Positions 10,823-43,980 of a stretch of 64,000 nt of DNA are shown here, piece by piece. The first letter of the stretch is position 1, and each line of letters begins with the position of its first letter. The position numbers were made by a program, and so were the translations under genes. The stretch is taken from the NCBI RefSeq assembly GCF_000284515.1, contig NC_017668.1, positions 1,426,001-1,490,000 of the forward strand, given 5' to 3'. Source of the DNA: Halobacillus halophilus DSM 2266 (lineage in GTDB: Bacteria; Bacillota; Bacilli; Bacillales; Halobacillaceae). Under the pieces are notes generated by a model. That model had not been told where the DNA came from. It worked only from the letters and a program-made list of their open reading frames with translations, and did no database searches.

Positions 10823-13993
<3,171 letters not shown>

Positions 13994-15640: not shown

Positions 15641-15644
15641 GGAG

Positions 15645-15678
15645 AAAAGCAACACAGCGCATGCTGCGTTGCTTTTTA
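15645..15678 (+). terminator. Terminator copied with the duplicated segment
   Basis: AAGCAAC / GTTGCTT stem with inner CAGC / GCTG and a T run, paralogous to 10679-10712. Confidence 0.8.
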
Positions 15679-15788
15679 TTATTAACTTTAAAGTCCTAAC
15701 CTAATCTCCACGAATGTATAAGCAATTATCAGTGAGAATCATAAAATACTATGGTACTCGTTAAAAAGGACCTAAGTACTGAGTATAA

Positions 15789-18161
<2,373 letters not shown>

Positions 18162-18384: not shown

Positions 18385-19500
18385 ATGATTACGGTCAGTC
18401 TTTGCATGATGGTGAAAAACGAAGAAGAGGTTTTAGCTCGATGTCTGGACTCTGTGAAGGACCTGGTGGATGAAATCAACATCGTGGACACTGGATCTGA
18501 TGATCGTACCGTTGAGATCGCCAAAGAATATACGGATCGTGTTTTTTTCTTTGAATGGACGGGGAGATTTACCGATGCAAGGAATGAATCCTTTAGGCAT
18601 GCGACCAAGGATTATATTTTCTACCTGGATGCTGATGATGTCATATTGGATGAGGATCGTGAGAAGTTCAAACGGTTAAAGGAAGGGCTTGATCCTGCAG
18701 TCGACTCGGTATCCATGTATTACAATGCAGGGACTGATGAATTCGGTAATGTCACGCTTAAGTATCGGAGGAACCGCTTAGTCAAAAGAAGTAAGAATTT
18801 CCAGTGGGGCGGGGATGTCCACAACTACTTGAATGTTTATGGACACATTATTAATTCCGATGTTGCAATTACTCACAAAAAAATTCAACACGCTGTTGGC
18901 AGAAACCTTTCTATTTATAAGGAGAAGATCGAAAGAGGAGATGTGTTCAGTCCTCGAGATTACTTTTATTATGGAAACGAGTTAAGAGAAAACGGTCATC
19001 ATGAAAAGGCTATCGAAAGTTATACGAAAAACATTGAACATAAGGAAGGTTGGATTGAAGATAAAGTCTATGCCTGCATCAACCGTGCAGACTGTTATCG
19101 ATTTATAGAAGAGACAGAAAAAGAACTAGCCTCTTTATTTGAATCGTTACGTTTTTCTAAAACACCCCGACCAGAAATGTGCAGCAGAGTGGGCTACAAT
19201 TTTCAAAGAAAAAAAGAATATAAGTTTGCAATTTATTGGTATGAATTAGCGACAACTATTGAAGACGATTCTGATAAATGGAGTTTTACTTATCCTGCTT
19301 ATTCCACTTGGTATCCTCACTTACAATTATGCGTTTGTTATTATAACCTATCTAATTTCGAAAAATCATACGAACATAATGAATTAGCTAGAAGCTTTCG
19401 GCCACAAGATGAAAGAGTACTTTTCAATAAGGAGTTACTCGAGAAGAAATTAGGATTGAATCAAACAGCAGAGCAGCCACAGGATGAATCTTCGTCATAA
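18385..19500 (+). CDS. Glycosyltransferase family 2 with C-terminal TPR-like repeats
   Basis: 371 residues behind AAAGGGGGAGATGGG. The N-terminal GT-A domain opens ITVSLCMMVKNEEEVLARCL, then DEINIVDTGSDDRT and the metal-binding DADD motif (FYLDADDVI) near residue 76. From about residue 180 come helical, tetratricopeptide-like repeats (YFYYGNELRENGHHEKAIESY...). This GT2-TPR build occurs in enzymes that glycosylate peptides and surface proteins. It lies just after the collagen-like genes and before a second glycosyltransferase, so the collagen threonines are the obvious candidate acceptors. Acceptor and donor are not proven. Confidence 0.85.
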   Translation: MITVSLCMMVKNEEEVLARCLDSVKDLVDEINIVDTGSDDRTVEIAKEYTDRVFFFEWTGRFTDARNESFRHATKDYIFYLDADDVILDEDREKFKRLKEGLDPAVDSVSMYYNAGTDEFGNVTLKYRRNRLVKRSKNFQWGGDVHNYLNVYGHIINSDVAITHKKIQHAVGRNLSIYKEKIERGDVFSPRDYFYYGNELRENGHHEKAIESYTKNIEHKEGWIEDKVYACINRADCYRFIEETEKELASLFESLRFSKTPRPEMCSRVGYNFQRKKEYKFAIYWYELATTIEDDSDKWSFTYPAYSTWYPHLQLCVCYYNLSNFEKSYEHNELARSFRPQDERVLFNKELLEKKLGLNQTAEQPQDESSS

Positions 19501-19592
19501 TAGAGGGACATCTCGTATTTTTGGATCGAAATATTTCCCATAGAATAATTGTTTTAATTATCTATATCACTGAATGGGTGTGAATAGAGCGG

Positions 19593-29632: not shown

Positions 29633-30054
29633 TACTTAACGACGATTACTGGAGACTGAACATATTTCACGAGTTTATGACTGACACTTCCCAGGATCAA
29701 CGTCTGCCATTTATTACGCCCGCGGCTTCCAATAACCACGCAATCATAATCTTCCTGGTTGGCATATTCAATCATTTCTTCAGCGGGATCTCCATGTAAC
29801 ATCAGAAACTTGGTGGAAACACCGGCTGACTCTACATATTTGATGACGTCCAGGAACTTTTCTTTCCGTTTCTTAGTAGCTGTATGAGAATCCCCATAGT
29901 TCAATACGTCCTGTTTAGATGTTTCACCATCAACCACATATACAAGGTCGATGTGCACCTCTTCCTTATGCGGGGAAACCATTTTTAGTGTCTGATCGAT
30001 TGCGCGACGGGAATGATCAGAACCATCCGTCGCGAGTAAAATATTTTTAAACAT
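29632..30054 (-). CDS. Universal stress protein (UspA family)
   Basis: 140 residues. Starts MFKNILLATDGSDHSRRAI and ends with GSRGRNKWQTLILGSVSHKLVKYVQSPVIVVK. The ATP-binding G-2x-G-9x-G-S/T pattern appears as GSRGRNK...LGSVS. It lies 22 bases after a SulP transporter gene on the same strand, so the two are probably co-transcribed. UspA-SulP pairs are a recurring arrangement, and a stress or bicarbonate role is plausible but unproven. A divergent paralogue lies at 31759-32175. Confidence 0.9.
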   Translation of the reverse strand: MFKNILLATDGSDHSRRAIDQTLKMVSPHKEEVHIDLVYVVDGETSKQDVLNYGDSHTATKKRKEKFLDVIKYVESAGVSTKFLMLHGDPAEEMIEYANQEDYDCVVIGSRGRNKWQTLILGSVSHKLVKYVQSPVIVVK

Positions 30055-30076
30055 ACATCATGCTCCTATTCATAAT

Positions 30077-31537
30077 TTAGTGACCGGATCCTTTGGAGAC
30101 GCCTCCAAGTCGAGCCAATAGTCTGGAGCTCTCCCCGTTCAAGCCGATGAATTTAACTTTAATGCCGTTTTGTTCAAACTTCGATTCGATACTGTCGAGA
30201 GCACCGATGGCTGAGTCATCCCATAGATGAGAGTCGTTAAGATCGATAACGACTTCTTCGACATGATCTTTGAAATCGATCGAATTAAGAAAGTCTGTAA
30301 CCGACGCAAAGAATAACTGACCTTGCACATAATAGATGCGTTTTTTCCCTTCATTTGCGTACAAGGTTAATACATTTACTTTGGAAATCTTAACCGCAAA
30401 GAAAATCATACTGAGTACAACGCCGGCAAGAACGCCGTAGGCTAAGTTGTGCGTGATGACGACAGTTAGCACCGTTACAATCATGACAGCCGCATCAGAA
30501 CGTGGTACTCTGTGAATATTCCGGACGGAGCCCCAGTCAAACGTACCAATAGAAACCATAATCATGACACCTGCGAGTGCGGCCATTGGAATCTGAACAA
30601 CAACTCCACCCAGAACGATAATCATAAACATGAGAACGACACCTGCCACCAGCGAAGATAACCGTCCATTCCCGCCGGATTTCACGTTAATGACGGACTG
30701 ACCAATCATCGCACAACCAGCCATGCCGCCAAAGAATCCCGTCACGATGTTTGCGAATCCTTGACCGCGGCTTTCTTTGTTTTTATCACTTTCGGTATCG
30801 GTCATATCATCAACGATGGAAGCCGTAAGAAGGGACTCTAGTAGTCCGACAATCGTTAACGCTAAAGCATAAGGGAAGATAATCATCAGGGTTTCAAAAT
30901 TCAGCGGCATATCGGGCAAAGCGAACATAGGAAGGGTTTGTGTTAATTCTCCCATGTCCCCAACCGTTCTGACACCGATGTTCATCCATATTGCAATGGC
31001 GGATACGACCACAATGGCGACCAATGTGGAAGGGATGGTTTTAGTAACCAGTGGAAATAGATAAATGATAGCTAAAGTTAACCCAACTAATGCATAAATC
31101 ACCCAGGGTTCATTCTCAAAGTGCTGCAATTGGGAAGTGAAAATTAAAATCCCTAAAGCATTCACGAATCCTACCATAACGGAGCGGGGAATGAACCGCA
31201 TGAATCTAGCTAACTTAAAGACTCCAAACAATACCTGTAAGATCCCCGTCAGGATCGTTGTGGCGAGCAAGTATTCAATCCCGTGCTGAGCAACTAAGGT
31301 AATCATGACTAAAGCCATGGCACCTGTGGCCCCAGAGATCATTCCCGGGCGTCCACCCATAAAAGCAATCACAACGGATATACAAAAGGATGCGTACAAC
31401 CCGACCATTGGGTCTACACCTGCAATAATCGAGAAAGCGATGGCTTCAGGAATCAAGGCTAATGCCACAACGACTCCTGATAATACATCACCCTTTATGT
31501 TTCCGAGCCAATTTTCTTTAATTGATAAAGTTGACAT
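30077..31537 (-). CDS. SulP family anion transporter (YbaR/BicA-like group)
   Basis: 486 residues. Signature [27 protein letters not shown] near residues 25-50, then [16 protein letters not shown], and about 10 membrane segments. The final 100 residues are a STAS-like domain ([23 protein letters not shown]). It is shorter and of a different subgroup from the SulP at 2325. Related proteins have been linked to sulfate or Na+/bicarbonate uptake; the substrate is not shown. Downstream UspA is on the same strand. Confidence 0.88.
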
Positions 31538-31758
31538 ACATACCCTCTTTCTATTATTTTTTTAGACCGCTGAGTCTCACAGCAGCCAGATTTATAAGAT
31601 GATTTAATTTAGCGGTTTGGGTTAGGTTTCAATACCGTTCTTTTATAACTGACTATAATAGACTATAATAAAGAAAAATGTTTTGCAATAGGTTTCCTTT
31701 AGTTAAGCGTTATCATTAACATAGATTTAATAATGGATAGCAGAAGAGGAGCGATTCA

Positions 31759-32175
31759 ATGTTTTCTCATATACTTATAGCTTCGGATGGATCGAATCAT
31801 GCGGTGAGGGCTGCTGAACATGCGCTGCAGTTAGCTCAGCTATCGGAAGACTCACAGATTACGATTCTGTATGCGATTAGCGGCTCGACTTCTAAAAGTG
31901 ATGTCCTGAGTGAGAATATGGCCGACCTGTCCACGGTTAGGAAAGGGCGTCTATTTTCTACAGAAGGGGTATTTATAAAAGCGGGAATCAATTATGATGT
32001 GAAAGTATTAAAAGGTGATCCAGGACCTGCCATTGTCCGCCATGTAAATGAAAACCATTATGATGTAGTTGTAATCGGCAGCAGGGGACTGAATACGTTT
32101 CAGGAAATGGTGCTGGGAAGTGTGAGTCATAAAGTGGCGAAGAGGGTACAATGTCCGGTGTTGATTATTAAGTAG
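31759..32175 (+). CDS. Universal stress protein (UspA family)
   Basis: 138 residues behind AGAGGAGCG. Starts MFSHILIASDGSNHAVRAAEHAL. ATP-binding pattern GSRGLNTFQEMVLGSVSHKV and the usual C-terminal VQCPVLIIK strand. It diverges from the SulP-UspA operon and is paralogous to its UspA. The intergenic region has a direct repeat GACTATAAT (two copies near 31650-31668) that could be two -10 elements. MITE copy 3 begins at the last base of its stop codon. Confidence 0.9.
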   Translation: MFSHILIASDGSNHAVRAAEHALQLAQLSEDSQITILYAISGSTSKSDVLSENMADLSTVRKGRLFSTEGVFIKAGINYDVKVLKGDPGPAIVRHVNENHYDVVVIGSRGLNTFQEMVLGSVSHKVAKRVQCPVLIIK

Positions 32176-32784
32176 GCACTGTGAAAGTGTATGGTTGATT
32201 TACCATAAGAGGCTTATTACGCAAAAGTGCCGGTTTGCGTAAGACTCGAATTCGAGATATCTTTGGTCCGTTGCTAATATAGAAAGGGGCTGGCTACGGA
32301 AACAACTCGCTTTCCTGCGGGGGAACTGGCAAGCATCCTCGCTCGTTTCACTCCCTACGGGGTCTCGCCTAGCTCCTTCTCCCGCGGGAGTCTCGTCGTT
32401 TCCTTCGCCACCCTATGATGGAAGAGTGAACGGACCTTTCAATAGAAGAATTCATCATCCTGAATCAGCCTTTAATGCTTCTATAGCAGGGATTATCCCA
32501 CGTACGCGCTCATTGTTATAGGTTTATACCCACCGTAAACCAGGGCGTTCCAAACATGATTTCGAGCTCCCTATTTCGCAAGGTCCGGAGGGGGACGATG
32601 TAGACTCCTGCGGGATGAACATGATCGGTGAGACCCCGGAAGGCGAAGCCTGAGGAGGCTCAGCACATGCCCGTGGAAAGCGAAATCGTCCCCTGCAGGA
32701 CCATCCTCATACCAATATCTCGAAACTGAGTCTTCCAGTATCGGGAGCTTATCTTTAAAATCAATACTGAAGTTTAGTAAAGTC
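32175..32784 (+). mobile_element. MITE-like repeat, copy 3 (7/8 TSD)
   Basis: A 610-bp element starting GGCACTGTGAAAGT and ending AGTAAAGTC, a degenerate form of the family ends. Flanks are ATTAAGTA (32167-32174) and GTTAAGTA (32785-32792), a 7/8 target-site duplication. Modules A and B are in the same order as in copies 1 and 2. The left end sits against the UspA stop codon. Confidence 0.78.
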
Positions 32785-32883
32785 GTTAAGTAAGAAAGAA
32801 ATTGGTAATATATTTGAGTTACAAGGGCAGAAGGTATAAACTTGTAGATAGAAAATACAAACGTAATAAAGGAAGGTCTGTCC

Positions 32884-33072
32884 ATGGACAATGAACAAGA
32901 AATCATGACGGTTTCTCAAGTTGCTGAATATCTACAAATTAGTGAAGTGACCACATACAAATTAGTACAGGAAGGACGTATCCCGGGCTTTAAGATCGGG
33001 CGTCACTGGCGGGTGAGAAAAGAAGATTTAAGAGAACATATCAGGAAACTTCAGCATGGTGAGCATTTATAA
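32884..33072 (+). CDS. Excisionase-family helix-turn-helix DNA-binding protein
   Basis: 62 residues behind GGAAGG. The whole protein is a HTH_17 domain: MTVSQVAEYLQISEVTTYKL, then EGRIPGFKIGRHWRVRKEDL, the winged part typical of excisionase/MerR-like proteins. No integrase or recombination site is nearby, so it is more likely a small regulator than a true excisionase. A strong terminator follows. Confidence 0.85.
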   Translation: MDNEQEIMTVSQVAEYLQISEVTTYKLVQEGRIPGFKIGRHWRVRKEDLREHIRKLQHGEHL

Positions 33073-33077
33073 TAAGT

Positions 33078-33120
33078 GCACGAAAAAAAACCCTCTATTA
33101 TTTAGAGGGTTTTTTCGTGC
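33078..33120. terminator. Terminator after HTH gene
   Basis: A long stem GCACGAAAAAA...CCCTCTA / TAGAGGG...TTTTTTCGTGC with a five-base loop. Confidence 0.9.
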
Positions 33121-33217
33121 GCTTTGTTTTGAATTTCTATAATTTTTCTAACAAATAGTGAGGAAGAAAACGATATAATGAAGATAGAAGTCAGAAGGAG
33201 GAAGAAGGTGAAAGCTA

Positions 33218-33889
33218 ATGAGCCGGGGAAGTTATGCATCAAGAATTTTGTTATTTGTGGTCTTGATCTTGACGATGGTTTATTTCATTCATTTCAGGTG
33301 GCATATCACTCCGAATGATATCCAGCAAATGATTACGGCTTTTGGCTGGCTGTCACCTTTTATCTTTATAGCAGCTTATATGGCTGCTCCTTTTATGATG
33401 TTTCCTGCGCCGGTATTGTCGATGAGTGCCGGTTTAGCTTATGGGTTTTGGCCGGGAACTTTGTATATATGGCTGGGAGCGGGCGGGGCAGCAGCTACGG
33501 GTTACTTGATCGGACGTTTTTTCGGGGAAGCGGTATTTCAATTCCATCAATATTCCTGGTCTGCTAGAGCGGAAGAAAGAATGAACAGACAAGGGTTTTG
33601 GTTTGTGCTGCTGTTACGGCTTTTCCCTCTCATGGGCTTTAGTATGCTGAGCTACCTGTCAGGTATGACGAAGGTACGTTTCTCTACCTATCTTTCTGCA
33701 ACGTGGATTGGAATTCTGCCTGGTGTATTTGTTTATGGGACGCTTGGCGCAAGCTTAATGGCAGGAGATCCGCTCATTATCGGGGCGGCCGTCCTGTTGC
33801 TTGTGCTCCTTTTGAGTCTATCATTCTTCTTTAGACATAAAGTGAAAAATTGGCTTGATTTAGAGGAGAATAAAGAGAAAAAAGGGTGA
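33218..33889 (+). CDS. TVP38/TMEM64 family membrane protein
   Basis: 223 residues with about five membrane segments. Features of the SNARE-associated (DedA-like) VTT domain: MFPAPVLSMSAGLAYGFWPG, then GAGGAAATGYLIGRFFGE, and LLLRLFPLMGFSMLSYLSGMT. The AAGGTG ribosome site is seven bases from the ATG. The family is thought to act in lipid or undecaprenyl-phosphate scrambling or proton-coupled transport. The exact role is unknown. Confidence 0.85.
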   Translation: MSRGSYASRILLFVVLILTMVYFIHFRWHITPNDIQQMITAFGWLSPFIFIAAYMAAPFMMFPAPVLSMSAGLAYGFWPGTLYIWLGAGGAAATGYLIGRFFGEAVFQFHQYSWSARAEERMNRQGFWFVLLLRLFPLMGFSMLSYLSGMTKVRFSTYLSATWIGILPGVFVYGTLGASLMAGDPLIIGAAVLLLVLLLSLSFFFRHKVKNWLDLEENKEKKG

Positions 33890-33931
33890 ATGGATGAGAA
33901 ATACGCCTGCATTCGAGGGAATGTTCAGTAT

Positions 33932-33980
33932 AAAAGATAGGAAGCTCCATTTTAGCTAGATATGGAGCTTCCTATCTTTT
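33932..33980. terminator. Bidirectional terminator
   Basis: AAAAGATAGGAAGCTCCAT / ATGGAGCTTCCTATCTTTT, a perfect 19-bp stem between convergent genes. Confidence 0.92.
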
Positions 33981-34016
33981 TATTTCTAGATTTCTGTTCC
34001 GTAAAGAATATCATTC

Positions 34017-34970
34017 TCAGTTTCTCAAAATAATAAAAACAAGATAAACGATATACATCGTCAGAAGGATGAAACCCTCTCTTTTTCCAATCTTATAATG
34101 AGTCCTCGAGAATAAGAGCAGCAACAAGCTCAAGGCAATCATAATCAGCACGTCGGTAAATATCTTTCCGTTCACAGGTAAAGGCGTAACGACAGCTGAA
34201 GCCCCAAGAACAAATAAGATGTTGAAAACATTACTCCCTACCACATTCCCTAAAGCAATTCCGCTTTCTTTCTTCAAGGCAGCCGAAATGGAGGTCACCA
34301 GTTCAGGAAGCGATGTGCCGATCGCAATGATGGTTAATCCTACTAATGTTTTACTCATTCCAAGATCTAAGGCGATGGCTGTGCCGCTGTCGACTACCAG
34401 GTCCCCTCCAAAAATAATCGCTGCTAATCCGGCTAACGTTAAACCAATATTTTTCCCCCACTTAATATTTGAAGGAATGGGGTCCTCTTTTGAATCTTTT
34501 CGACTTTTCAGGCCTACTTCAATCACATAGTACATGAAAATAGATAAAAACAATAAAAAGATGATGCCGTCACTGCGTGTGAGCAGGTTATCACTTAGTC
34601 CCTGTAGCTTTATGTCACTGATCAGGACGAGCAACGCTCCGCTGGCAAGCAATGTAAACGGAATTTCTTTTTTGGTTGTTTCACTTTCTACCATTAATGG
34701 ATAGAGGAAGGCTGCAATTCCTACCACTAACGTGATGTTAAAGATATTACTTCCTACCACGTTCCCCAGCGAAACTTCAGCATTTCCCTGTAAAGCGGCA
34801 AGGATACTGACGGTTGCTTCAGGAGAGCTTGTGCCTAAAGCTACAATCGTTAACCCGATTAAGATAGGTGGAACACGGAGCAGCCTGGCAATATTGGAAG
34901 ATCCATCAACAAATAAATCGGCTCCTTTAATTAATAACCCGAAGCCAATAAGTAAAAATATGTAAGCCAT
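34017..34970 (-). CDS. Sodium/calcium exchanger family protein (CaCA, YrbG-like)
   Basis: 317 residues, about ten membrane segments in two inverted halves. The alpha repeats are clear: GTSSPEATVSILAALQG with GNVVGSNIFNI in the first half, GTSLPELVTSISAALK with GNVVGSNVFNI in the second. The acidic residues in GTSxPE coordinate the ion. It moves Ca2+ or Na+ against the other. The direction is not predictable, though a salt-adapted host would benefit. Confidence 0.92.
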   Translation of the reverse strand: MAYIFLLIGFGLLIKGADLFVDGSSNIARLLRVPPILIGLTIVALGTSSPEATVSILAALQGNAEVSLGNVVGSNIFNITLVVGIAAFLYPLMVESETTKKEIPFTLLASGALLVLISDIKLQGLSDNLLTRSDGIIFLLFLSIFMYYVIEVGLKSRKDSKEDPIPSNIKWGKNIGLTLAGLAAIIFGGDLVVDSGTAIALDLGMSKTLVGLTIIAIGTSLPELVTSISAALKKESGIALGNVVGSNVFNILFVLGASAVVTPLPVNGKIFTDVLIMIALSLLLLLFSRTHYKIGKREGFILLTMYIVYLVFIILRN

Positions 34971-35628
34971 AGATGCTCTTCAGACTCCTTTTTATTGTTT
35001 CTAGTTTAACCATAACTTGTTTCGTTAGAGTTGAAAAGTATAGAGATACGCTTTTTAAGCTAGTTAGTACGTTCTCGTTCTAGGAAAGAAGGGAGAAGTT
35101 ATCTTAGGATTACTGATGCCCCCCAGGCGTGGGGACTGGTTACAGTCTGTGGTATTCAAGTTCCATATAAGGTAGTTATTCCTGTTCCTGTAACTTTCAG
35201 AATATTCAAGATTTTACCCTTTTCTCTCTCGAACTGACATTTTTATTCATTATTTTTAAGTCTAACGCGGCGCCGAACATGTGATTTATGTATCCATACA
35301 CTTTAGCCTACTCGATATTTATTCACGTGCATATCTTAATAAGAGCTTTGAATAAGGCAGAATTACAAAGGCTTGACTGTTTAATAAACCATAACCTGAA
35401 TTTAAAACAATCTATGTATCCCTATATTTACACCGAAGTAAGAGTTAGCTCAAACGCGGGTAGAAGTAAAATGGGGAGTATGGAAGGGCTTAACTTAGTT
35501 ATTTAATGACATGATATTAGGAGTGAGCGTGTGTCTCCCGAGAAACCATACAACTAAAAATACCTGTAGAAGAAACTAAATGTTTTCCCCAACGATCACC
35601 ATAGATCGTAAGAAAGGAGAAGACCATA
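34971..35628. other. Intergenic region before the S-Ena-like cluster
   Basis: 658 bases. A 72-codon frame at 35288-35506 lacks a ribosome site and recognisable features. Nothing else is supported. Confidence 0.4.
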
Positions 35629-36510
35629 GTGGATAAAAACAACTGCAGTTTACATTGTGTAAATGTAGAAAAAGTATATGATTGGCTTATTGTTCCTTTG
35701 CAATTTACTACTTGTATAGAAATACCTAAAATCAAAAAAAGAGTCACTGACGAAATTTGCGGTAATTTTGCGATAGCCTCCACTGAACAGACTTGCCCTC
35801 TTTGGGAATCCACTCTTCCCTCGCCCTCAGCAGGTACTGTTTCCCTATCGTTGGCAAGTGGCAGTTTAAATGATTTAGAGGTTCTTATTAATGGAAGAAC
35901 GATTGAAACAGGTAACAAGGAACAGTTTACCCAAACTTTCTCAACTTTGAACAGTCTGGCGTTAATAAATACTAATCCTCTAGTCACGGTAAGAGGAACT
36001 TATTGTCTCACTCTTCATTATTTTCTTTCTAGAAATTTAATAGAAGATTTACGGAATTGTCAGGAAGGAAATTGTTATTTATCTAATGAATGTGGGAGAC
36101 CGATCTCGATTAAGGTACTAGACTGCAAAGAAATAGGTGAGCGAAAAAATACGGAAATTATCCTCCCTAATGGACAACAGACTATATTGCAAAAAGTCAA
36201 TCTATGTAAGGAAGGTTGTGTCGGCTTGACTTATGATAAAGGTCGGCAACTGTGTGTGTTTCCTTTTAATAAAATGGAGCAACTTTTGCTTTGTGCGCCT
36301 GAAGGGACTACCCTCCAATGCGAAGTCACGGATTTCTGTTGCAGAATCAGCTCTATCAAAAATTTGAATAATTGCTGGCGCTTAGAAATTTCGATAGAAA
36401 TATGCCAAAACATAAAGGTCACCGCAGATACAACATTGGGAATTCAAGCACGTGAATGTTCTCCTCGTGGACTACTTTCCACGGGTAATTGCTTAAGCGC
36501 AAATCCATAA
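35629..36510 (+). CDS. S-Ena-like endospore appendage/coat protein with extra C-terminal domain
   Basis: 293 residues, Cys-rich, behind AAAGGAGAA; the start codon is GTG (read MDKNNCSLHC). Residues 10-30 hold VEKVYDWLIV, a motif common in Bacillus spore coat proteins. Residues about 38-135 match the S-type endospore appendage core (DUF3992): VTDEICGNF, a GTVSLSL strand and GTYCLTLHYFL at the end. Residues about 150-293 form a second Cys-rich domain (ILPNGQQTILQKV, LLCAPEGTTLQCEVTDF, ISIEICQNIKVTADT) paralogous to the N-terminus of the protein at 51033. S-Ena subunits cross-link by disulfides into robust spore fibres. This larger protein may be an anchor or cap (inference). Confidence 0.7.
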   Translation: MDKNNCSLHCVNVEKVYDWLIVPLQFTTCIEIPKIKKRVTDEICGNFAIASTEQTCPLWESTLPSPSAGTVSLSLASGSLNDLEVLINGRTIETGNKEQFTQTFSTLNSLALINTNPLVTVRGTYCLTLHYFLSRNLIEDLRNCQEGNCYLSNECGRPISIKVLDCKEIGERKNTEIILPNGQQTILQKVNLCKEGCVGLTYDKGRQLCVFPFNKMEQLLLCAPEGTTLQCEVTDFCCRISSIKNLNNCWRLEISIEICQNIKVTADTTLGIQARECSPRGLLSTGNCLSANP

Positions 36511-36555
36511 TTAGGGGGGAGGCTGTAATTAAAAGAGTACCTCTCCCTTATCAAC

Positions 36556-37074
36556 TTAAGAAAAATTTTGAACACTTGCGACTTTACATAAAGAGAGGGC
36601 AATAAAGGCGTTGTTATCTCGTAATTTTACAATTCCTTCTCCTGTTTCTAAAATTTGTGTATTTGATAAATTATTAAACGCTTGCCCGAGAGCATCTACA
36701 TCTGCTGTCGTAATTCCATCGAAAAGTTCTCGTAAAGGTCTCTCGCAGCAATCGCACTCTCCTTCGTTCGAAAGAGGAGGTGGTAATAAGAGAACGTTCT
36801 GTACTTGAGCGTTCTGAACACCAACGACCAAGCAAATAGGTAGAGCAATCGTGTTCGCACCTTGCCGGATGGTGATAATATAATCATTAACGTCTAATAT
36901 GGTAGCGCTTGGATATGTGCCTGAACTCGTATCTGTCGTCCCTATACGCACCACTCGACCTATAAGCTGCTCTAACACATATTGCATAGGGTCCACGCAG
37001 CAGTCACATAAACCTGAACCTGAACCATTTGAACCTGGACAGCACCCACAATCTCCACAATCACACATTCCCAA
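36556..37074 (-). CDS. Cys-rich spore-coat-like protein with internal duplication
   Basis: 172 residues behind a ribosome site in GAAGGAGGAA. The N-terminus is very Cys-rich (MGMCDCGDCGCCPGS...). Two related halves follow: CCVDPMQYVLEQLIGRVV to IALPICLVVGVQN (about residues 25-93), and CCERPLRELFDGI to IALSLCKVASVQN (about 108-169). The CDCC and CC clusters suggest disulfide cross-linking in the spore coat or appendage. It is on the strand of the two S-Ena-like genes and directly downstream of one. Family not recognised with certainty. Confidence 0.65.
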   Translation of the reverse strand: MGMCDCGDCGCCPGSNGSGSGLCDCCVDPMQYVLEQLIGRVVRIGTTDTSSGTYPSATILDVNDYIITIRQGANTIALPICLVVGVQNAQVQNVLLLPPPLSNEGECDCCERPLRELFDGITTADVDALGQAFNNLSNTQILETGEGIVKLRDNNAFIALSLCKVASVQNFS

Positions 37075-37136
37075 GTTCCTCCTTCTTTCTATATTATTAA
37101 ACTGAAATAAACAGTTCGGATTTTGATTAAACGTTA

Positions 37137-37541
37137 TTATACTCCTGGTGGTTCAAGTACATCATAATGTAGGTCTATACAATATTTTCCTCTACATATT
37201 GCCTCGGTGTTTTGCTCTGAACGACAAAGAATATCCACACTCACTGCATTCAACACGGTAATAGAGCGTGTGTTTTGACGTGGCACTCTAAAAATTTCAG
37301 GCGGACCAAATCGCTTGGAGACGCGCACTTCTAACAAGTTGTCACACCCTTGGTCGTAATAAGCACTTACGGTAGCTGCCGACTGAGCACCGGCATTAAA
37401 AAAATCCGGGTCTAATCGCCACACTCTAATTAGGTCTGTATCCGTTGAATTACAAGGAATCGCAAAATTTCCACAAAAATTATCCGTGACAATATCGCCA
37501 ATCACGGTTTGGTCCGGACAACAAGCACTACAATTTCCCAT
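37137..37541 (-). CDS. S-Ena-type endospore appendage protein (DUF3992-like)
   Basis: 134 residues behind AAAAGGAGGTGAATGAG. N-terminal connector MGNCSACCPDQ with three cysteines, then VIGDIVTDNFCGNFAIPC. A beta-jellyroll-like core holds AATVSAYYDQGCDNLLEV and PRQNTRSITVLNAVSVDI. It ends with GKYCIDLHYDVLEPPG. In S-Ena fibres the N-terminal cysteines pair with cysteines in neighbouring subunits. The paralogue at 38646-39050 is the same length and clearly related. The two are separated by MITE copy 4. Identity with the S-Ena family is from recalled motifs. Confidence 0.75.
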   Translation of the reverse strand: MGNCSACCPDQTVIGDIVTDNFCGNFAIPCNSTDTDLIRVWRLDPDFFNAGAQSAATVSAYYDQGCDNLLEVRVSKRFGPPEIFRVPRQNTRSITVLNAVSVDILCRSEQNTEAICRGKYCIDLHYDVLEPPGV

Positions 37542-37645
37542 TTCTCATTCACCTCCTTTTCTATACTATTAGATGCAAGAAACATAGAGATTGCTTGGAC
37601 TAATATAAGAGAAAGTGATAGTAAATCATCTCTTTTTTATAAAAG

Positions 37646-38488
37646 GGCTCTGGAAAACTTCTGTATGACTTTAATGTTAAGCTCCCAATGGTGTAAGATC
37701 GGTTTGCTTCACTTTGTTTGGATGAATGGGGTCTTGGAAATGAATCGCTTTCCGTGTTCTGCAAGATACAGGGTCATTGGACGTTGCCATACGATGTGGC
37801 GTTATTAGACGAACCTTCTCAGCGGAAAGCTTCCTCAGGCTACGCTTTCCGGGATCTTACCGATCATGTTCATACCACAGGTTTCTCGCCATTTCCTAGC
37901 CCTCTTTATCAAATTTTATGAAACGAAACCTTCCGAGCATGAGCATATAGGAATTGCCAAAAAACAGTCTTTAACATAAGTGTTTGAGCGATTTCGATTC
38001 GTTTATCAAGATTAGATTGAGCTGGTCCGAAGAATCTGGTGTGGCAAAGGGCGGAAGGGAACGGTGAGACTTCAAAGTTAAAAGCGGAAGCATCTTGTTC
38101 ACAGGCGTATGTACTGGACTGAGCTCACGTAGATAAAGAAAACACGAAGAGCGTAGCGATTCGATGTTGCCTTATCGTACAGAAGCAAGGGGAGTCTCAC
38201 TAGCCCCTTGGTGCTAGAACTAAATAGCTCTCTTTGCTGTTTATATCCTGATTTAGCTTAGGACTAATAAGAGTGTAATAGTGGGGGGGAATTGACAGTT
38301 GATGCCCCGGAAGGCGCCAGCCTGAGGAGACGCAGCGCATGCACGCGGAAAGTGGGCGATGCAGCTGGCTTAGTCGTTCACTGAAGCCCCTTTTTCAACA
38401 TAATATTTCGAAACGGAGGCTTACAGTATCCAGCCCTATTGTGTAATAAGCCTCTTATCAGAAATCAACAATAAACTTTAACAAAGCC
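37646..38488 (-). mobile_element. MITE-like repeat, copy 4 (inverted, larger)
   Basis: An 843-bp element in the opposite orientation to copies 1-3. The left edge GGCTCTGGAAAACTT matches the family's right end reversed. The right edge, ending AACTTTAACAAAGCC, is the reverse of the family's left end, including the CCCTATTGTGTAATAAGCC block. Flanks TATAAAAG and CATAACAA match at only five of eight positions, so the site is older. It contains additional internal sequence absent from other copies. It lies between two S-Ena-like genes. Confidence 0.72.
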
Positions 38489-38569
38489 CATAACAAAGAA
38501 GTTTCTTTATAATAAAGAAAAAATCTGGGCGGTATGTATGAAACAACTGTCAGGCGTACAAAATGCGAA

Positions 38570-38615
38570 AAAAAGCGAGAAATCAGGGTTTTCAAATCTG
38601 ATTTCTCGGTTTTTT
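38570..38615. terminator. Bidirectional terminator
   Basis: CGAGAAATCAG / CTGATTTCTCG with A and T runs. It ends transcription of the minus-strand S-Ena-like gene at 38646-39050. Confidence 0.85.
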
Positions 38616-38645
38616 CATTCAAGTAGATTTTGCCCCATCATCTTT

Positions 38646-39050
38646 TTAAATCCCTGGTGGTTCTAATACATCATAATGAAGATCCACACAATATTTTCCT
38701 CGACAGACCGTAGTGTCAGGTCCTTCTGAAGTGCAAAAAATATCGATAGCTATTATATCCAATACAGTTATGGATCGTGTATTTTGACGAGGTATCACCA
38801 TATCTATAGTACTCAGGTCTCTTTTTGTCGCTGTCATCGTTATTAAATTGTCACATCCAACGTCATAGTAAACACTAACGGTGGCTGCACTCTGGGCTCC
38901 AGCATTAAATAAATCTGGATCTAGACTCCAAATTCTGTTTATGTCAGGATCTTCCTCATTGCACGATAAAACAAAGTTTCCACAAAAATTATCTGTGACA
39001 ATATCGCCAATAACGGATTGATCCGGACAACAAGCACTACAATTTCCCAT
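38646..39050 (-). CDS. S-Ena-type endospore appendage protein (DUF3992-like), paralogue
   Basis: 134 residues behind AAGAGGTGAAGGAATAA. It shares MGNCSACCPDQ, then GDIVTDNFCGNF, AATVSVYYDVGCDNLI, PRQNTRSITVL and GKYCVDLHYDVLEPPG with the protein at 37137, and differs mostly in the middle (MTATKRDLSTIDM). It is probably the founding or duplicate copy. Pairs of similar subunits are what build S-type appendages (Ena1A and Ena1B in B. cereus). It has its own terminator, so it may be transcribed separately. Confidence 0.75.
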   Translation of the reverse strand: MGNCSACCPDQSVIGDIVTDNFCGNFVLSCNEEDPDINRIWSLDPDLFNAGAQSAATVSVYYDVGCDNLITMTATKRDLSTIDMVIPRQNTRSITVLDIIAIDIFCTSEGPDTTVCRGKYCVDLHYDVLEPPGI

Positions 39051-39586
39051 TTATTCCTTCACCTCTTCTTAACGTAATAGTATAGTAAATGCAAAAATAA
39101 AGGATTTGTATAGGGGTTTTTACTATATAAACAAGTTTTTCTTGAAAATAATAGAATGCGTATTTATACAAAGCTTAAATGTTGAAAAGAGGAAATTAGT
39201 TATGATTTAAAACTAAATTTGTATTGATTTGTTCGACTGGATTCTGACTGCATTCTATTCATACATTTAGGTGTCCATTTAATCCAAAGTTAGCTCATTA
39301 TTGGAATTATTGAGCATAAGGATATATTTTTATTCCTGCTTAATCGCTTAGCCATATGAAGGCTTACTTTAAAAAGTGCCTTCTTGAGTAAAACCCTATC
39401 TGCTCAATCGCTTTTCCGAGGCTTATACACGGGATCAAGGTCAGTTCAATAACAGCACATGGCGTGACGGGCTTAATTGAAGATTCATTAAACAACTTAG
39501 GGATGTACTCGCATTTTGTTCATGAATATTCGTCTTATAAAAATGTGAAAAGAAAGGTTGGCAAGGAGAAGTGAGTTGTGTAGAAT
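39051..39586. other. Intergenic region upstream of the nucleosidase gene
   Basis: AT-rich, no gene seen. The PurR-like inverted repeat sits at its right edge. Confidence 0.4.
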
Positions 39587-39633
39587 AAAAAACGTACGTT
39601 TTCATAAATAAATTACATAATGTTCGTTTTTTT
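39587..39633. promoter_or_regulatory. PurR-like inverted double PurBox
   Basis: AAAAAACGTACGTT (39587-39600) faces AATGTTCGTTTTTTT (39619-39633). The reversed right arm contains CGAAC and fits the B. subtilis PurBox (AWWWCCGAACWWT) at 12 of 13 positions. The left arm is weaker (CGTAC). The spacing between the two cores, 24 bases, suits PurR's paired boxes. It lies just upstream of a purine nucleosidase gene. Confidence 0.45.
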
Positions 39634-39656
39634 ATTTAATCGGGAGGAGAGATAGA

Positions 39657-40466
39657 ATGAATTTTAAACAAAGTGTCATTCGTTTAACCGGGGTCGTGCT
39701 TTTCGTTTTCTTGCTGGCGGGATGTGGAGAACAGCCCGAGAGTGCAGGAGCAGTTGACAAAGAAGAAGAAAAAGTAATCGGAATCATAGGTCCAATGGAA
39801 GTGGAAATTGACATTCTTCATTCTCATATGGAAGTGGAAGAAACAACGGAAAAAGGTAAATTAACCTTTTATGAAGGCAAATTAGAAGGCCAGCCGATTG
39901 TCCTTGTGAAGTCCGGAATAGGGAAAGTGAATGCAGCGTCGGCAGCTCAAATGCTTATCAGTGAGTTTGATGCGGATGTATTGATTAACTCAGGCGTAGC
40001 TGGAGGAATCCACCCTGATCTAGGTCTTGGAGACATCGTTATTTCTACAAAGACGGTGCATCATGACATGGACGAAACGGCTAAAGATTTCAAGCCGGGG
40101 CAAATTCCATACATGGACACCAGGTATTTTGAAGCAGATCAGGAATTGATACAACTGGCTGAAGAAGGCGCAAAGGATCTTCCTGATTATGTAGATGTAT
40201 TCAAAGGACCGATTGCGACAGGAGACCAATTTATTGCAAGCAAAGAAAAAACGGAATGGATTTATGAAACCTTTGATGCGTATGTCGTGGAGATGGAAGG
40301 AGCGGCTGTTGGACAGGTTGCCTACTTAAATAAAATCCCGTACGTCGTCATTCGTTCAGCTTCGGATGATGCAGGAGAAGAAGCGGCTGGAATTCAGGAA
40401 AACTTTGTGGAAGAAGCCGCTCAGAACTCCAGTCATGTGATAGAAGAAATGTTAAAAGGTATTTAG
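39657..40466 (+). CDS. Lipoprotein 5'-methylthioadenosine/S-adenosylhomocysteine nucleosidase (MTAN-like)
   Basis: 269 residues behind GGGAGGAGAG. The N-terminus is a lipoprotein signal with lipobox LLAGC (Cys22), so the mature protein should be tethered outside the membrane. Residues 40-269 are a MTAN fold: IGIIGPMEVEID, KSGIGKVNAA, INSGVAGG, GDIVIS, the substrate-binding VVEMEGAAVGQVA and the catalytic aspartate in IRSASDDAG. MTAN splits adenine from MTA or SAH and is normally cytoplasmic, so an exported form is unusual. A PurR-like operator precedes it. It may release adenine from extracellular nucleosides for salvage (inference). Confidence 0.88.
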   Translation: MNFKQSVIRLTGVVLFVFLLAGCGEQPESAGAVDKEEEKVIGIIGPMEVEIDILHSHMEVEETTEKGKLTFYEGKLEGQPIVLVKSGIGKVNAASAAQMLISEFDADVLINSGVAGGIHPDLGLGDIVISTKTVHHDMDETAKDFKPGQIPYMDTRYFEADQELIQLAEEGAKDLPDYVDVFKGPIATGDQFIASKEKTEWIYETFDAYVVEMEGAAVGQVAYLNKIPYVVIRSASDDAGEEAAGIQENFVEEAAQNSSHVIEEMLKGI

Positions 40467-40473
40467 AAGTGGA

Positions 40474-40511
40474 AAGAGGCTAACCTTATGTCAAAGGTTA
40501 GCCTCTTCTTG
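40474..40511 (+). terminator. Terminator after MTAN gene
   Basis: AAGAGGCTAACCTT / AAGGTTAGCCTCTT, a perfect 14-bp stem. Confidence 0.9.
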
Positions 40512-40599
40512 GGAATGTGAAATGAACAGTAACATGAATGTTGGTGAAAAAAGTTATGATTTTATGTAGAAGTTTGTTTTAAATTGTTCTACAATGGAA

Positions 40600-40710
40600 A
40601 AACAGGTTAGGTTTTCCAATACTAAATAAACCGTCACGGCCTGTACCCGGCTCTGAGAGTGGGGGATCAATCTTTGTTTCCCTCACTTTCCCAGAGTGAG
40701 GGTTTTTTAT
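40600..40710 (+). ncRNA. Candidate structured RNA with terminator/antiterminator-like alternatives
   Basis: A GC-richer patch (ACCGTCACGGCCTGTACCCG, then CTCTGAGAGTGGGGGA at 40651-40666) is followed by a perfect terminator (CCCTCACT / AGTGAGGG with T run, 40680-40710). The 40651 strand can also pair with TCCCTCACT...CAGAG (40679-40696), which would break the terminator stem. That is the layout of an attenuator or riboswitch. No plus-strand gene follows, so it may be a free small RNA. Not matched to a known class. Confidence 0.35.
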
Positions 40711-40859
40711 TTAGAAATATTTTCCAATTTATTCAGTAAGTAATCCAGTTGTTGAGAAATAATCAAAATATCTCGAAAGACGGCTTCATTCATATAAGCT
40801 GCATACATTCGTACTCTTGTTTCTTCAATTTGATTTTCCAAATGTTTTTTATCTGACAT
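40707..40859 (-). CDS. Spo0E-like aspartyl phosphatase (sporulation regulator)
   Basis: 50 residues from the ATG at 40859 (MSDKKHLENQIEETRVRMY), with GGAGGTGG upstream; a longer frame to 40898 is unlikely. The family helix-hairpin signature is present: IEETRVRMY, a short loop, then IISQQLDYLLNKL, with the SQxLDxLL motif that removes phosphate from Spo0A~P. It acts to delay sporulation. The stop lies within the T run of the plus-strand terminator. Confidence 0.8.
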   Translation of the reverse strand: MSDKKHLENQIEETRVRMYAAYMNEAVFRDILIISQQLDYLLNKLENISK

Positions 40860-41014
40860 TATCCACCTCCAATTTTTACATAGACAAAGATTATCCAATA
40901 TCCAGTTTTCTGTTTCATGAGGCGCTATTTATGGTATTAAGAATATGTAGTACCTCTGAATTCAGGAAACATTTCTTCCATTCGATCTCCCATTAGCTAA
41001 AGGGTGTCATTCGG

Positions 41015-41052
41015 TTTAAAAACGTGTCAAAGTGCAGGCTCTGACACGTTAA
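41015..41052 (-). terminator. Terminator of the small zinc-ribbon gene
   Basis: AACGTGTCA / TGACACGTT stem, followed on the minus strand by a T run. Confidence 0.65.
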
Positions 41053-41096
41053 CTTATGTGTACCACATATTCTCTTTTAATAGGAGTGTGAAAATA

Positions 41097-41276
41097 TCAC
41101 TCATGGATTTGTGTTAAACGAGTGTGGTTTTCTCCGCACCTGGTGCATTGAGTCCATAAAGTGTATACAATTTTTTCAGAGAACTCTTTAGGCGATACCT
41201 TAATAATTATTTGTTCATGATGATAGCAGTTCTTGCAGTAACTTTTTATTAAGGAACCCACTTCATATGGTTTCAA
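41097..41276 (-). CDS. Small zinc-ribbon-like protein
   Basis: 59 residues starting at a TTG (41276) behind GAGAGGAGGAAA. The frame reads MKPYEVGSLIKSYCKNCYHH, then KVSPKEFSEKIVYTLWTQCTRCGENHTRL. Two CxxC knuckles (CKNC, CTRC) spaced about 27 residues apart make a four-Cys zinc ribbon. No family recognised. It is likely a small nucleic-acid- or protein-binding factor. Confidence 0.55.
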   Translation of the reverse strand: MKPYEVGSLIKSYCKNCYHHEQIIIKVSPKEFSEKIVYTLWTQCTRCGENHTRLTQIHE

Positions 41277-41415
41277 ATTTTTCCTCCTCTCTAAGGTGAG
41301 AGAGGCAACAGTAGGAAGTTAATATTAGTATATTATAAAAATAATTTCAAGTTCTAATAAGTGCCTCTACCAAGTTATGAATTGAAGTAGAAGTTAATGA
41401 GGTGAATTCATTACT

Positions 41416-41551
41416 TTGGAAAAAGTAATTGAACAATTCACGCAGAGTGAACCATGGGAAGAAGATATATTTGTACTGGGAGGGATTTTATGTAAGAGCA
41501 GCAACCCAAGAAGACTTGATTGCTGTAGAGGGCAGTTGGAAGCAAAAATGA
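41416..41551 (+). pseudogene. Possible small frameshifted gene
   Basis: From the TTG at 41416 the frame reads MEKVIEQFTQSEPWEEDIFVLG; a GAGGTG site lies about ten bases upstream. At about 41481 the coding sense moves to another frame, GFYVRAATQEDLIAVEGSWKQK, with a stop at 41549. The joined product would be about 44 residues, plausible but unrecognised. A sequencing indel is an alternative. Confidence 0.3.
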
Positions 41552-41568
41552 CCATTACCTTTGTTCTT

Positions 41569-41820
41569 TTAGGTTGTTTCTAATACAGGGGAACTTGCCA
41601 GAAGCTTAACGCGAACACTTTGCCTTGTTTCAATGAAGACTAAATAAGGTTCTGCCTCGTACGGGAAATATTGTACTAATTCAGGCTTTATATTAAGAAC
41701 TTCTAAGAGTTCCTGTTCATTCTTAAACGTAGCTAAGGGTAGAGTAGTCATTTCCCCGCTGCACTTGGTAAATAAGATCGTATGATAATGCTTACTTTTA
41801 AGGAAAAAAATTAAATCCAT
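41569..41820 (-). CDS. Hypothetical protein, unknown function
   Basis: 83 residues from the ATG at 41820 (MDLIFFLKSKHYHTILFTK), with AAGGAGA six bases upstream; an in-frame start at 41841 is less likely. The predicted fold is mixed alpha/beta (MTTLPLATFKNEQELLEVL, YLVFIETRQSVRVKLLASS). No family or motif recognised. Confidence 0.55.
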   Translation of the reverse strand: MDLIFFLKSKHYHTILFTKCSGEMTTLPLATFKNEQELLEVLNIKPELVQYFPYEAEPYLVFIETRQSVRVKLLASSPVLETT

Positions 41821-41987
41821 TATAACTCTCCTTGAGGCCAATATTATATTACTTTAACATAATAAATAGTCAAAAAATCAGGTTTTAAAGGATTGGAATT
41901 AATTACTACCATTACATGCCGGGATTACGACGAACGAAAGACAGAGCTAAATTTAAACTCTGTCCTTTGCCCTGTATAGAAATTTTA

Positions 41988-42161
41988 TTAACGCTTTTCT
42001 TCTTTCTGACATTCTTTGTGGATTTCTAACTTTCTCTTCTCTAACTCCAGTTTCTTATCTTCTAACTCTAATTTCTTCTTCTTTAAGTCAATTTGGAGTA
42101 CAAAATATAAAAAAATGAAAGTCAGAGCAACAATTACGGAAATAAAGAAAAATAGGTTCAA
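41988..42161 (-). CDS. Small membrane protein with charged coiled-coil tail
   Basis: 57 residues from a TTG at 42161 behind CAGGAGGAGATAAA; an ATG at 42230 lacks such a site. One hydrophobic span (LFFFISVIVALTFIFLYFVL) is followed by a highly charged heptad-like helix (LKKKKLELEDKKLELEKRKL). Function unknown; it may be a membrane-anchored scaffold. Confidence 0.5.
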   Translation of the reverse strand: MNLFFFISVIVALTFIFLYFVLQIDLKKKKLELEDKKLELEKRKLEIHKECQKEEKR

Positions 42162-42407
42162 ATTTATCTCCTCCTGGATAACATAAAATTTAGATGGCCT
42201 CTTCATCCAATCGTTTAATAGGGGGTACAAATAAGTAATACTATCACGTTCATTTCACTTTAGCGAATCTGATCTGCAAGGTTTTACTCCTTAATTAATC
42301 ATCATTTCACAATATCTTAGCCTCACCTCCAACCATCATTCCTGTACCTGTTACATACTGATATAATAGAAGAACCAATACCATTTCCAATAAGGGAGCT
42401 GACGAAC

Positions 42408-43006
42408 ATGAAAGATGTTCTGATCCAGTATATGAAACGGTTCTCCGATCTCAGCGAGTCCGAATTAAAAAAACTGACTGAGAATGTTCTGGTGGCTGCT
42501 TTTAAGAAAGGAACGATCTCCTCTTACATCAGGGAGACATTCCCGACAAATGCTATTTTGTTTTACAAGGGTGTGTCCGGCAGTATGCTGTAGATGAAAA
42601 TGGAAATGAGAATACGTACAATTTCTTTACCGAAGAACAAAGTGTGACGATTTTTAATCAGCACACGACTGATCAAACGTCTCCCTATTCACTCGGCTGT
42701 TTGGAAGACTGTACGCTTGTTGTAGGTGATTTAGCTACGGAGCAGGAAAGTTACGACATGCATCCGGTACTAGAGACCATGACTCGCAAAATGATGGAAG
42801 AAGATATGGGAACGATGAGGGATGATTTCTCAGCTTTCATCTCTTCGACCCCAGAAGAGCGGTATTATGGTTTGATGGAAAAAAGACCAGATTTAGTGGA
42901 CCGTGTTCCCCAGTACCAGTTGGCAAGCTACTTGGGAATCAAGCCGGAATCTTTAAGCCGTATAAAGAAACGGGCAGCAGCGAATCATCTGAGGATTGTG
43001 GAGTAG
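42408..43006 (+). pseudogene. Crp/Fnr family regulator, frameshifted
   Basis: The first frame starts MKDVLIQYMKRFSDLSESEL and runs to KKGTI. The coding sense then continues in another frame as LLHQGDIPDKCYFVLQGCVRQY, through AVDENGNENTYNFF, to a C-terminal helix-turn-helix (VPQYQLASYLGIKPESLSRI) ending at 43006. Removing two bases (a TC in ATCTCCTC, about 42517) restores a protein of about 198 residues. The HTH and cNMP-binding beta roll are intact. Either the gene is inactivated or the sequence has an indel. Its 3' end overlaps that of the convergent DUF4386 gene. Confidence 0.75.
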
Positions 43007-43710
43007 GATTCGTCGTCCAAAGTCAAATTTCTCCCTTTCAACAATAACCATATACCAAAACCTAATTCTCCAATGAACATGGGGATCATAAGAATTAATT
43101 CCAGTATCCCTGTAAAACGTTCCATTTGTGGGATAAAACCGTACATGAAATGAATGAACGAGTAGCTGATTCCCGCTAAAACGAGTAAAATGCTGATGAC
43201 TTTTGGTATTTTTCTTGTACCCAAGGCGATCAGGCCGACTGCGATAAGATGAAGACCGAATATCATTAATCCAAATGACCAGATGGCTTCAAATGCTGTG
43301 ATGGAAGCCATGACGTGGTGTGCTAAATCTGCCGCAGAGGTTTGAACTATGCCATTGGCTATAACAAGATGGGAAACCGCAATGGCTAGAACGGCTGTGT
43401 AAAGTAAACGAAGCCAGCCGGCCAGTAAGGCATAACCAGGCTGAAACGGCTTTAAGAACACATAGAATCCCCATGATACGATTAAATCCGTGATGATAAT
43501 GATCAGCCAACCAAGCACCTCAAGTCGAAACAGGAATGGAGATGCTAGGATATTTTTTAATGTAGCGGCCGCATCTCCATCTATGACTAATGAACTGTGA
43601 AAATACCCGTGAGCAATGAATGCAGCCAATGTCATGACAAGTAAGGCGACACCTGAAAAGAAAGCTCCTTTCTGCTGCATGTTCTGATTCATTGTTCTCC
43701 TTGATTTCAT
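42985..43710 (-). CDS. DUF4386 family membrane protein
   Basis: 241 residues with about six membrane segments. The ATG at 43710 follows AGGAGG by seven bases; a second start at 43692 also has AAGGAGA. Motifs typical of DUF4386: LVIANGIVQTSAADLAHHVM, then FEAIWSFGLMIFGLHLIAVG, and ISYSFIHFMYGF near the C-terminus. Members are often next to Crp/Fnr-type or other regulators, as here. Function unknown. Confidence 0.82.
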   Translation of the reverse strand: MKSRRTMNQNMQQKGAFFSGVALLVMTLAAFIAHGYFHSSLVIDGDAAATLKNILASPFLFRLEVLGWLIIIITDLIVSWGFYVFLKPFQPGYALLAGWLRLLYTAVLAIAVSHLVIANGIVQTSAADLAHHVMASITAFEAIWSFGLMIFGLHLIAVGLIALGTRKIPKVISILLVLAGISYSFIHFMYGFIPQMERFTGILELILMIPMFIGELGFGIWLLLKGRNLTLDDESYSTILR

Positions 43711-43887
43711 ATAAGGACCTCCTCGAATTTGCTTTCATACCTATTGTATTTTGCCTGAGGAAGAATTTCCTTGACTTAAATCAAGGAATTGGTGTTTTTA
43801 AAATTTTTGGCAAGTGAATTTCAAAAAGTGCACGGAAAATACTTGGACTTGTAACTTGAAGGGTACTGTATAGAACAAGTACGTCAT

Positions 43888-43947
43888 AAAAAAGAAACTC
43901 TAAACTTCCTTCCAAGGACAAGGAGGAGTTTAGAGTTTCTTTTTTTA
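43888..43947. terminator. Bidirectional terminator downstream of ppdK
   Basis: AAAAAAGAAACTCTAAACTTCC and its inverse around 43922-43947, with A and T runs on each side. Confidence 0.88.
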
Positions 43948-43980
43948 TTAGTGAGAGCATTCATTAAATATTACTTCTTT

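Follow-up and report, generated by a model that had tools for sequence, protein, structure and literature searches.

An Ena domain built into a spore coat protein as the probable root of endospore appendages in Halobacillus halophilus

How a spore holds on to its appendages is the question raised by a cluster of four genes in the halophilic spore-forming bacterium Halobacillus halophilus DSM 2266. The rooting of the best-studied spore hairs, the S-type endospore appendages (Ena), is not yet understood, and one protein of this cluster, P0001, bears on it as an Ena domain fused to a spore coat domain. The genes are located at positions 35629–39050 of the window, i.e. of the whole stretch of 64,000 nucleotides analysed here (contig NC_017668.1, positions 1,426,001 to 1,490,000), and all four were found where a sequence-only reading had placed them. 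We consider it probable that these genes specify both an Ena fibre of the spore surface, stabilised by disulfides, and the root of that fibre, P0001.

Membership of three of the proteins in the Ena family is secure. PF13157 (Enas; cut-off 22 bits) matches the putative fibre subunits P0003 (37137–37541, minus strand, 134 residues) with E 2.5e-18 and 66.5 bits and P0004 (38646–39050, minus strand, 134 residues) with E 2.5e-19 and 69.8 bits. It matches the proposed anchor P0001 (35629–36510, plus strand, 293 residues, with a GTG start and an AAGGAG box upstream) with E 4.6e-15 and 56.1 bits. The earlier assignment of all three to DUF3992/Ena is thus borne out by the PF13157 search. Exactly these three matches occur in the 4.17-Mb genome, and 14 control genomes gave none.

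Fold evidence covers two proteins, P0003 and P0001, for which AlphaFold models were built from 19 and 29 alignment rows, respectively. The P0003 model has eight strands and a mean predicted local distance difference test score (pLDDT) of 83.6. Its five top rows in Foldseek are Ena1C, Ena2A (two chains), Ena1B and Ena3A (E 4.0e-8 to 5.3e-6), with the next row at E 7.1e-4. With VIA-align, four Ena entries reach Z-scores of 12.8, 11.9, 11.9 and 11.5, followed by 9.1. In the P0001 model (mean pLDDT 87.7, predicted template-modelling score 0.63), residues 26–140 find the same four entries best (Z 12.6 to 10.8, next 8.4), and the Ena part at residues 36–133 aligns with pdb entry 8pdz with Z 12.6 and a root-mean-square deviation of 1.9 over 95. 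Hence, the predicted folds agree with the Ena jellyroll that had been proposed. Searches of the PDB sequences with single proteins gave no matches; profiles were required for solved relatives, and the best solved relative of the fibre-subunit profile is Ena1C.

P0001 contains a second domain. The "extra domain" pointed out earlier in this long protein is a BMQ_0737 outer-coat domain, as P0001 matches NF052457 (BMQ_0737 morphogenetic spore coat) with E 1e-33 and 117.3 bits, above the curated cut-off of 71. In an alignment (A5) of seven fusions, P0001 and six others, with 22 plain BMQ_0737 proteins, an Ena domain of about 100 residues lies between an N-terminal C-[IV]-N-x-E-K-V-Y-D-W motif and the core. 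Plain BMQ_0737 proteins share the motif, in the form C-[IV]-x-x-x-K-V-Y-D-W, and the core but lack the Ena domain between them. In P0001 the parts are the motif C-V-N-V-E-K-V-Y-D-W, the Ena domain (residues 31–131) and the BMQ_0737 core (residues 147–289). Ten further fusions were scanned, and the PF13157 cut-off was passed by all ten and that of NF052457 by nine. The profile of alignment A5 found no solved relative, and the fold search of P0001 barely probed the BMQ_0737 core, since the Ena part dominates the match lists. Passages of PMC4656864 place a BMQ_0737 fusion to green fluorescent protein in the outermost layers of spores of B. megaterium, the species for which the location is known. 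No description of an Ena-BMQ_0737 fusion, or of Ena in Halobacillus, was found in the open-licence PMC literature. Within this literature, a putative root fused to BMQ_0737 would be a new form of Ena anchoring.

The motifs V-T-D-x-[FI]-C-G-N-F and G-[KT]-Y-C-x-x-L-H-Y, noted before, were recovered in P0001, P0003 and P0004. A shared N-terminal Cys motif had also been claimed for all three. It is present in the two subunits as MGNCSACCPD and missing from P0001, where C10 is part of the N-terminal Y-D-W motif typical of BMQ_0737 coat proteins (alignment A5). In Ena1B, C24 takes part in a fibre disulfide. C7, C8, C23 and C121 of P0003 align with C10, C11, C24 and C109 of Ena1B, and P0004 has cysteines at the same positions; C126 of P0001 aligns with C109 of Ena1B and C142 of Ena1C. 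Cys10, Cys11 and Cys109 of Ena1B and Cys142 of Ena1C are named in passages of PMC12921279. Additional cysteines of P0003 (C30, C66, C106 and C116) are invariant in all five rows of a further alignment (A7). P0003 and P0004 are no near-duplicates, as had been stated. They are identical in 90 of 134 residues (67%) and in 277 of 405 nucleotides, so that their duplication is not recent, and both frames are open over 44 replacement and 35 silent codon differences.

Passages of PMC12921279 describe S-ENA fibres whose subunits are linked lengthwise, the connector of one coupling to Cys109 in another, and whose connectors point to the spore. The first S-ENA subunits are held by an Ena1C ring with Cys142, whose receptor in the coat is described there as unidentified; Ena1C forms rings and not fibres. 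The same source describes ExsL as a CotZ domain joined to DUF3992. By analogy, P0003 and P0004 would be fibre subunits with jellyroll domains pairing side by side, and they would polymerise. The cysteines of the MGNC..CCPD connector could reach the luminal GKYC cysteine of the subunits below and thereby tie the fibre lengthwise. P0001 would form the base, its Ena domain offering the receiving end of a subunit without a connector of its own. Since the receiving C126 is present and a connector is missing, P0001 should be able to receive subunits and unable to plug into a tip. The earlier suggestion "base or tip" thus leans to the base, on the grounds of this receiving end, the missing N-terminal connector and the coat domain. 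Following Ena1C and ExsL, the BMQ_0737 part may be incorporated late in sporulation into the outermost layer of the coat or exosporium. The displayed Ena domains may then form a ring or patch on which the first fibre subunits could dock their connectors.

P0001 itself gave no CotZ row at E≤1 in Pfam or NCBIfam. The genome has three CotZ matches, none of which coincides with an Ena match, and consequently no ExsL-type protein was found in it. With three PF13157 matches in total and CotZ located elsewhere, P0001 is the sole candidate root found in its own genome.

The S-ENA of the B. cereus group (Ena1A/Ena1B/Ena1C; pdb entries 7a02, 9i0y and 9t3p) share with this cluster the PF13157 jellyroll, the MGNC..CC connector and the four Ena1B cysteine positions. 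There, too, two subunit genes are accompanied by a further Ena protein in opposite orientation. The luminal Cys of the Ena1C-type anchor, a nonameric ring giving no fibre, is shared by P0001 (C126). However, Ena1C has a proline- and Cys-rich linker where P0001 has the BMQ_0737 coat domain, and P0003 and P0004 carry the additional cysteines and form a branch of their own. L-ENA with ExsL (Ena3A, pdb entry 8pdz) follow the same principle of an anchor made of an Ena domain fused to a spore-layer domain. ExsL has an N-terminal CotZ and a C-terminal Ena domain, whereas in P0001 a BMQ_0737 protein is interrupted by the Ena domain; moreover, no bclA-like gene was seen among the open reading frames (ORFs) of the island that holds the cluster. 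Passages of PMC11952670 describe F-ENA with F-Anchor (DUF4183), again a fusion of a fibre-like domain with a spore-layer part. This is another family, and the four cluster proteins gave no DUF4183 match at E≤1. We tentatively suggest, while rating it somewhat below an even chance, a third and self-sufficient class of Ena root. Here a base subunit would have grown from an outer-coat lattice protein and would need no separate receptor; a mobile cassette of subunit and root would equip BMQ_0737-compatible spores, with fibre lineages swapped on the same root. An Ena cap fused to a member of a coat family known from the outermost layers of B. megaterium spores also points to a candidate for the coat receptor of the Ena1C ring.

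The fusion architecture occurs in at least 18 of 299 genomes of the order (19 matches in a profile search with the fusion alignment). Matches were listed to E ~2e-19 and counted if they spanned profile position ≤9 to ≥284 of 306; weaker full-length fusions may consequently be uncounted, a match in G127 (6–158) was left out, and the query alignment itself contained sequences from three of the 18 genomes (G000, G011 and G044). Among the matches listed, 17 of the 18 fusion genomes have a further Ena gene outside the fusion. The distance is at most 3 kb in 16 of these genomes, and in G227 the intact further gene lies ~10 kb from the fusion. The chance expectation is 3.4 of 18, uncorrected for kinship. 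Carriers include Halobacillus litoralis 22508_20, H. kuroshimensis, Alkalibacillus haloalkaliphilus, Alkalihalobacillus sp. BA299, Virgibacillus chiguensis and Gracilibacillus halotolerans; these six are the loci with a fusion among 79 from a pattern scan, the others being mostly plain BMQ_0737 genes. As longer partners of Ena genes elsewhere, CotZ-Ena proteins, which correspond to ExsL, were found at loci L158 and L165 (Pfam) and L164 (NCBIfam CotZ_rel); in several other longer partners that were scanned, the Ena match is the only Pfam domain. PF13157 occurs in 57 of the 299 genomes and in 32 of 116 genera, and in Halobacillus in 8 of 22 genomes, so that Ena genes extend well beyond the B. 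cereus group. Passages of a 2021 review (PMC8619143) state that no homologues of the ena1/ena2 clusters were known in other taxa, and passages of a 2026 paper (PMC12921279) call ENAs widespread in Bacillus and Clostridium.

In a tree of BMQ_0737 cores (21 fusions and a random sample of 50 from 121 plain cores) the fusions stand nearly together, with two changes and one fusion, L042, on a long branch among plain cores. This may be compatible with a single origin of the fusion. Subunits from different branches are found alongside the fusions, a pattern that looks like an exchange of root and fibre.

Several loci with related genes show further arrangements. At L028 (5720–6446, genome G009) the Ena part (142 residues) and a piece of the BMQ_0737 core (77 residues) are encoded by two different ORFs, a fusion that has either been broken or diverged. 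At L026 (7793–8470, G011) the genes for the fusion and the Ena subunit flank one for a collagen-like protein that begins with BclA_C (E 1.8e-50), a candidate for the tip fibrillum of this fibre type. In two Halobacillus species a choice-of-anchor L protein is encoded between Ena subunit and fusion (L014, 638–1378; L015, 2449–3189; NF038133 E 5.5e-19 for the L014 copy), possibly a fibre adhesin. A 301-residue protein with three Ena-like stretches is found at L173 (4085–4990, G102:C42) near two genes of the P0002 family.

The entire cluster lies in an island of 4.47 kb (35042–39513), delimited by blastn against two sister Halobacillus genomes, in which 113 bp (G019) and 111 bp (G001) take its place. 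Window positions 33904–35041 and 39514–40577 match L177 (G019) at 88–1228 and 1342–2400 with 92% and 89%, and the match of L178 (G001) stops at window position 35040 (its base 1219) and resumes at 39523 (its base 1331). In both sisters the flanking antiporter and nucleosidase genes (named from sequence) are ~0.3 kb apart, and neither genome gave a PF13157 match. The island genes have 38–43% guanine plus cytosine, similar to the 42% of the window. The lack of the island in the sisters could also reflect loss there rather than gain here. Other Halobacillus fusions have different surroundings, beside a signal-peptidase-like gene at L014 and L015.

Three Priestia megaterium plasmids (L183, L184 and L185; 8.9–15.7 kb, MOBQ, mobilizable) carry a fusion with other Ena genes, which are annotated just as "S-Ena type endospore appendage" and are surrounded by plasmid, mobilisation, transposase and hypothetical genes. 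Since two of the three share one fusion protein, two distinct plasmid fusions were tested. Those of L183 and L184 both pass PF13157, and NF052457 is passed by L183, with L184 at 48 versus 71. A tblastn search with P0003 against 72,556 plasmid records gave no match. The set thus travels as a cassette, seen here as an island that two sister genomes lack and in relatives on plasmids, with the direction of change being inferred. A cassette of this kind suggests that spores may acquire a visible structure by transfer.

Several observations weigh against P0001 as the root of a fibre. The luminal cysteine, present in P0001, is lacking from 16 of the 22 Ena domains of fusions that were examined. A conserved anchor disulfide as a general rule was therefore rejected, as 6 of 22 fusions keep this cysteine, and in the fusions that lack it docking would be non-covalent or run via other cysteines. 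The likeness of P0001 to Ena1C was also rejected as proof of an anchor: it is no anchor mark by itself, since the fibre-subunit profile matches Ena1C best as well. No convincing sigma-K promoter was found for the four genes; 427 of 3000 random stretches match as well as P0002 and P0004 do, and the other two genes, P0001 and P0003, score worse. The island genes could be dispensable or silent, since two sisters live without the island and PF13157. One fusion genome, G158, has no other PF13157 gene, and the Ena-domain tree, built on few columns, splits the fusions and forces at least five changes.

These points leave room for other explanations. The Ena and BMQ_0737 domains might form no fibre and instead be parts of a coat element that is flat or ring-like, or else the genes might be silent passengers of a recent insertion, as would fit the rings rather than fibres that Ena1C itself gives (passages of PMC12921279), the absence of the island from the sister genomes and the unrecognisable promoters. 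We regard this as unlikely, given two connector-bearing subunit genes that keep open frames despite their many codon differences and a pairing of subunit and fusion that is widespread among the matches listed. P0001 might also be a tip or lateral component which displays its BMQ_0737 domain on the fibre and does not bury it in the coat; tips of ENA are known to carry display domains such as the collagen-like tip fibrillum (passages of PMC11952670). However, with connectors pointing to the spore (PMC12921279) a tip protein should carry a connector, and P0001 has none before its Ena domain. In addition, BMQ_0737 of B. megaterium belongs to the outer layers of the spore coat (PMC4656864), and ExsL follows a like principle, its CotZ domain being located at the base (PMC12921279). 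A tip or lateral position is hence quite improbable in our view.

If P0003 and P0004 polymerise with P0001 as root, the symmetry of their fibres must be considered. The S-type assignment made before is partly supported by sequence comparison: the Ena1B cysteine positions are kept, but the subunits are a separate branch and their best solved profile relative is Ena1C. In the Ena-domain tree P0003 and P0004 form their own supported branch with subunits of L014, L015 and L043, apart from subunits ending in GEICITPRY (like Ena1B/Ena2A) or SFSLNYKF (like Ena3A); the solved Ena proteins are not among its rows, and likeness was judged by the end motif. A ladder-type arrangement (L-ENA-like) or a third symmetry, instead of the staggered S-type, would be in line with this branch and with the fold Z-scores of P0003, which are tied between S- and L-subunits (11.9, 11.9 and 11.5). 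On the other hand, the connector CC pair and the luminal cysteine resemble Ena1B, and the subunit profile reaches Ena1B at E 0.0091 versus 0.48 for Ena3A, a weak signal in which Ena2A was not reported at E≤1. A ladder or third symmetry is accordingly a possibility to be taken seriously, though somewhat less favoured than a staggered fibre.

The Cys-rich neighbour mentioned in the sequence-only reading is P0002 (36556–37074, minus strand, 172 residues, TTG start), with 13 Cys and two CxCC-headed repeats. It belongs to no Pfam or NCBIfam family; a single Pfam row at E 0.19 is below the cut-off of that family. Relatives occur in 8 of 199 genomes, and six of these eight also have PF13157, compared with 57 of 299 overall (kinship uncorrected). 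The family adjoins the fusion in four genomes (G000, G044, G154 and G316), and at L180, in Halobacillus genome G006, a relative neighbours Ena genes. In G044 the start of the P0002 relative, MGGKGCCPDRKFI, resembles the connector of the Ena subunit at the same locus, MGKGCCPDRPIV. P0002 might thus be an accessory protein contacting the fibre by way of a similar Cys-Cys-Pro peptide, e.g. as a cap, tip or lateral component, a weak suggestion at present. That P0002 is an ordinary coat protein which lies near the cluster by chance is doubtful in view of this neighbourhood and similarity, yet far from negligible: no known family claims it, and G212 (a copy with three stops) and G224 have a relative but are not among the 57 PF13157 genomes.

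P0002 follows P0003 downstream in the same direction, with a gap of 62 bp, P0001 is convergent on both, and P0004 is located upstream of P0003. Just past the 3' end of P0004, an inverted repeat at 38569–38615 (18-nt arms, 94% complementary, T-run at the end) is a likely terminator. Between P0003 and P0004 lies an interspersed composite repeat (37560–38640) of ~1.1 kb with several sub-blocks and 83 matches in the genome, counting itself, to which we ascribe no function in the fibre. No Rfam family matched at gathering scores in window positions 30000–45000.

Elsewhere in the window, at 51033–53086, a permuted BMQ_0737 protein has the core first, then the Y-D-W motif and then Ig-like repeats. 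The following ORF, in another frame and with a 10-base overlap, continues similar repeats. Relatives have 683 and 697 residues in some genomes and, like here, 442–451 in others, and this is possibly a split gene. Collagen-like genes are located at 10104–18161. Among them, a 774-residue protein ends in a BclA_C match (17790–18104; 40.5 versus a cut-off of 38 bits), and a 398-residue ORF (14093–15289) resembles the C-terminal part of a 1040-residue protein (10871–13993). Glycosyltransferase-type genes follow at 18385–21194.

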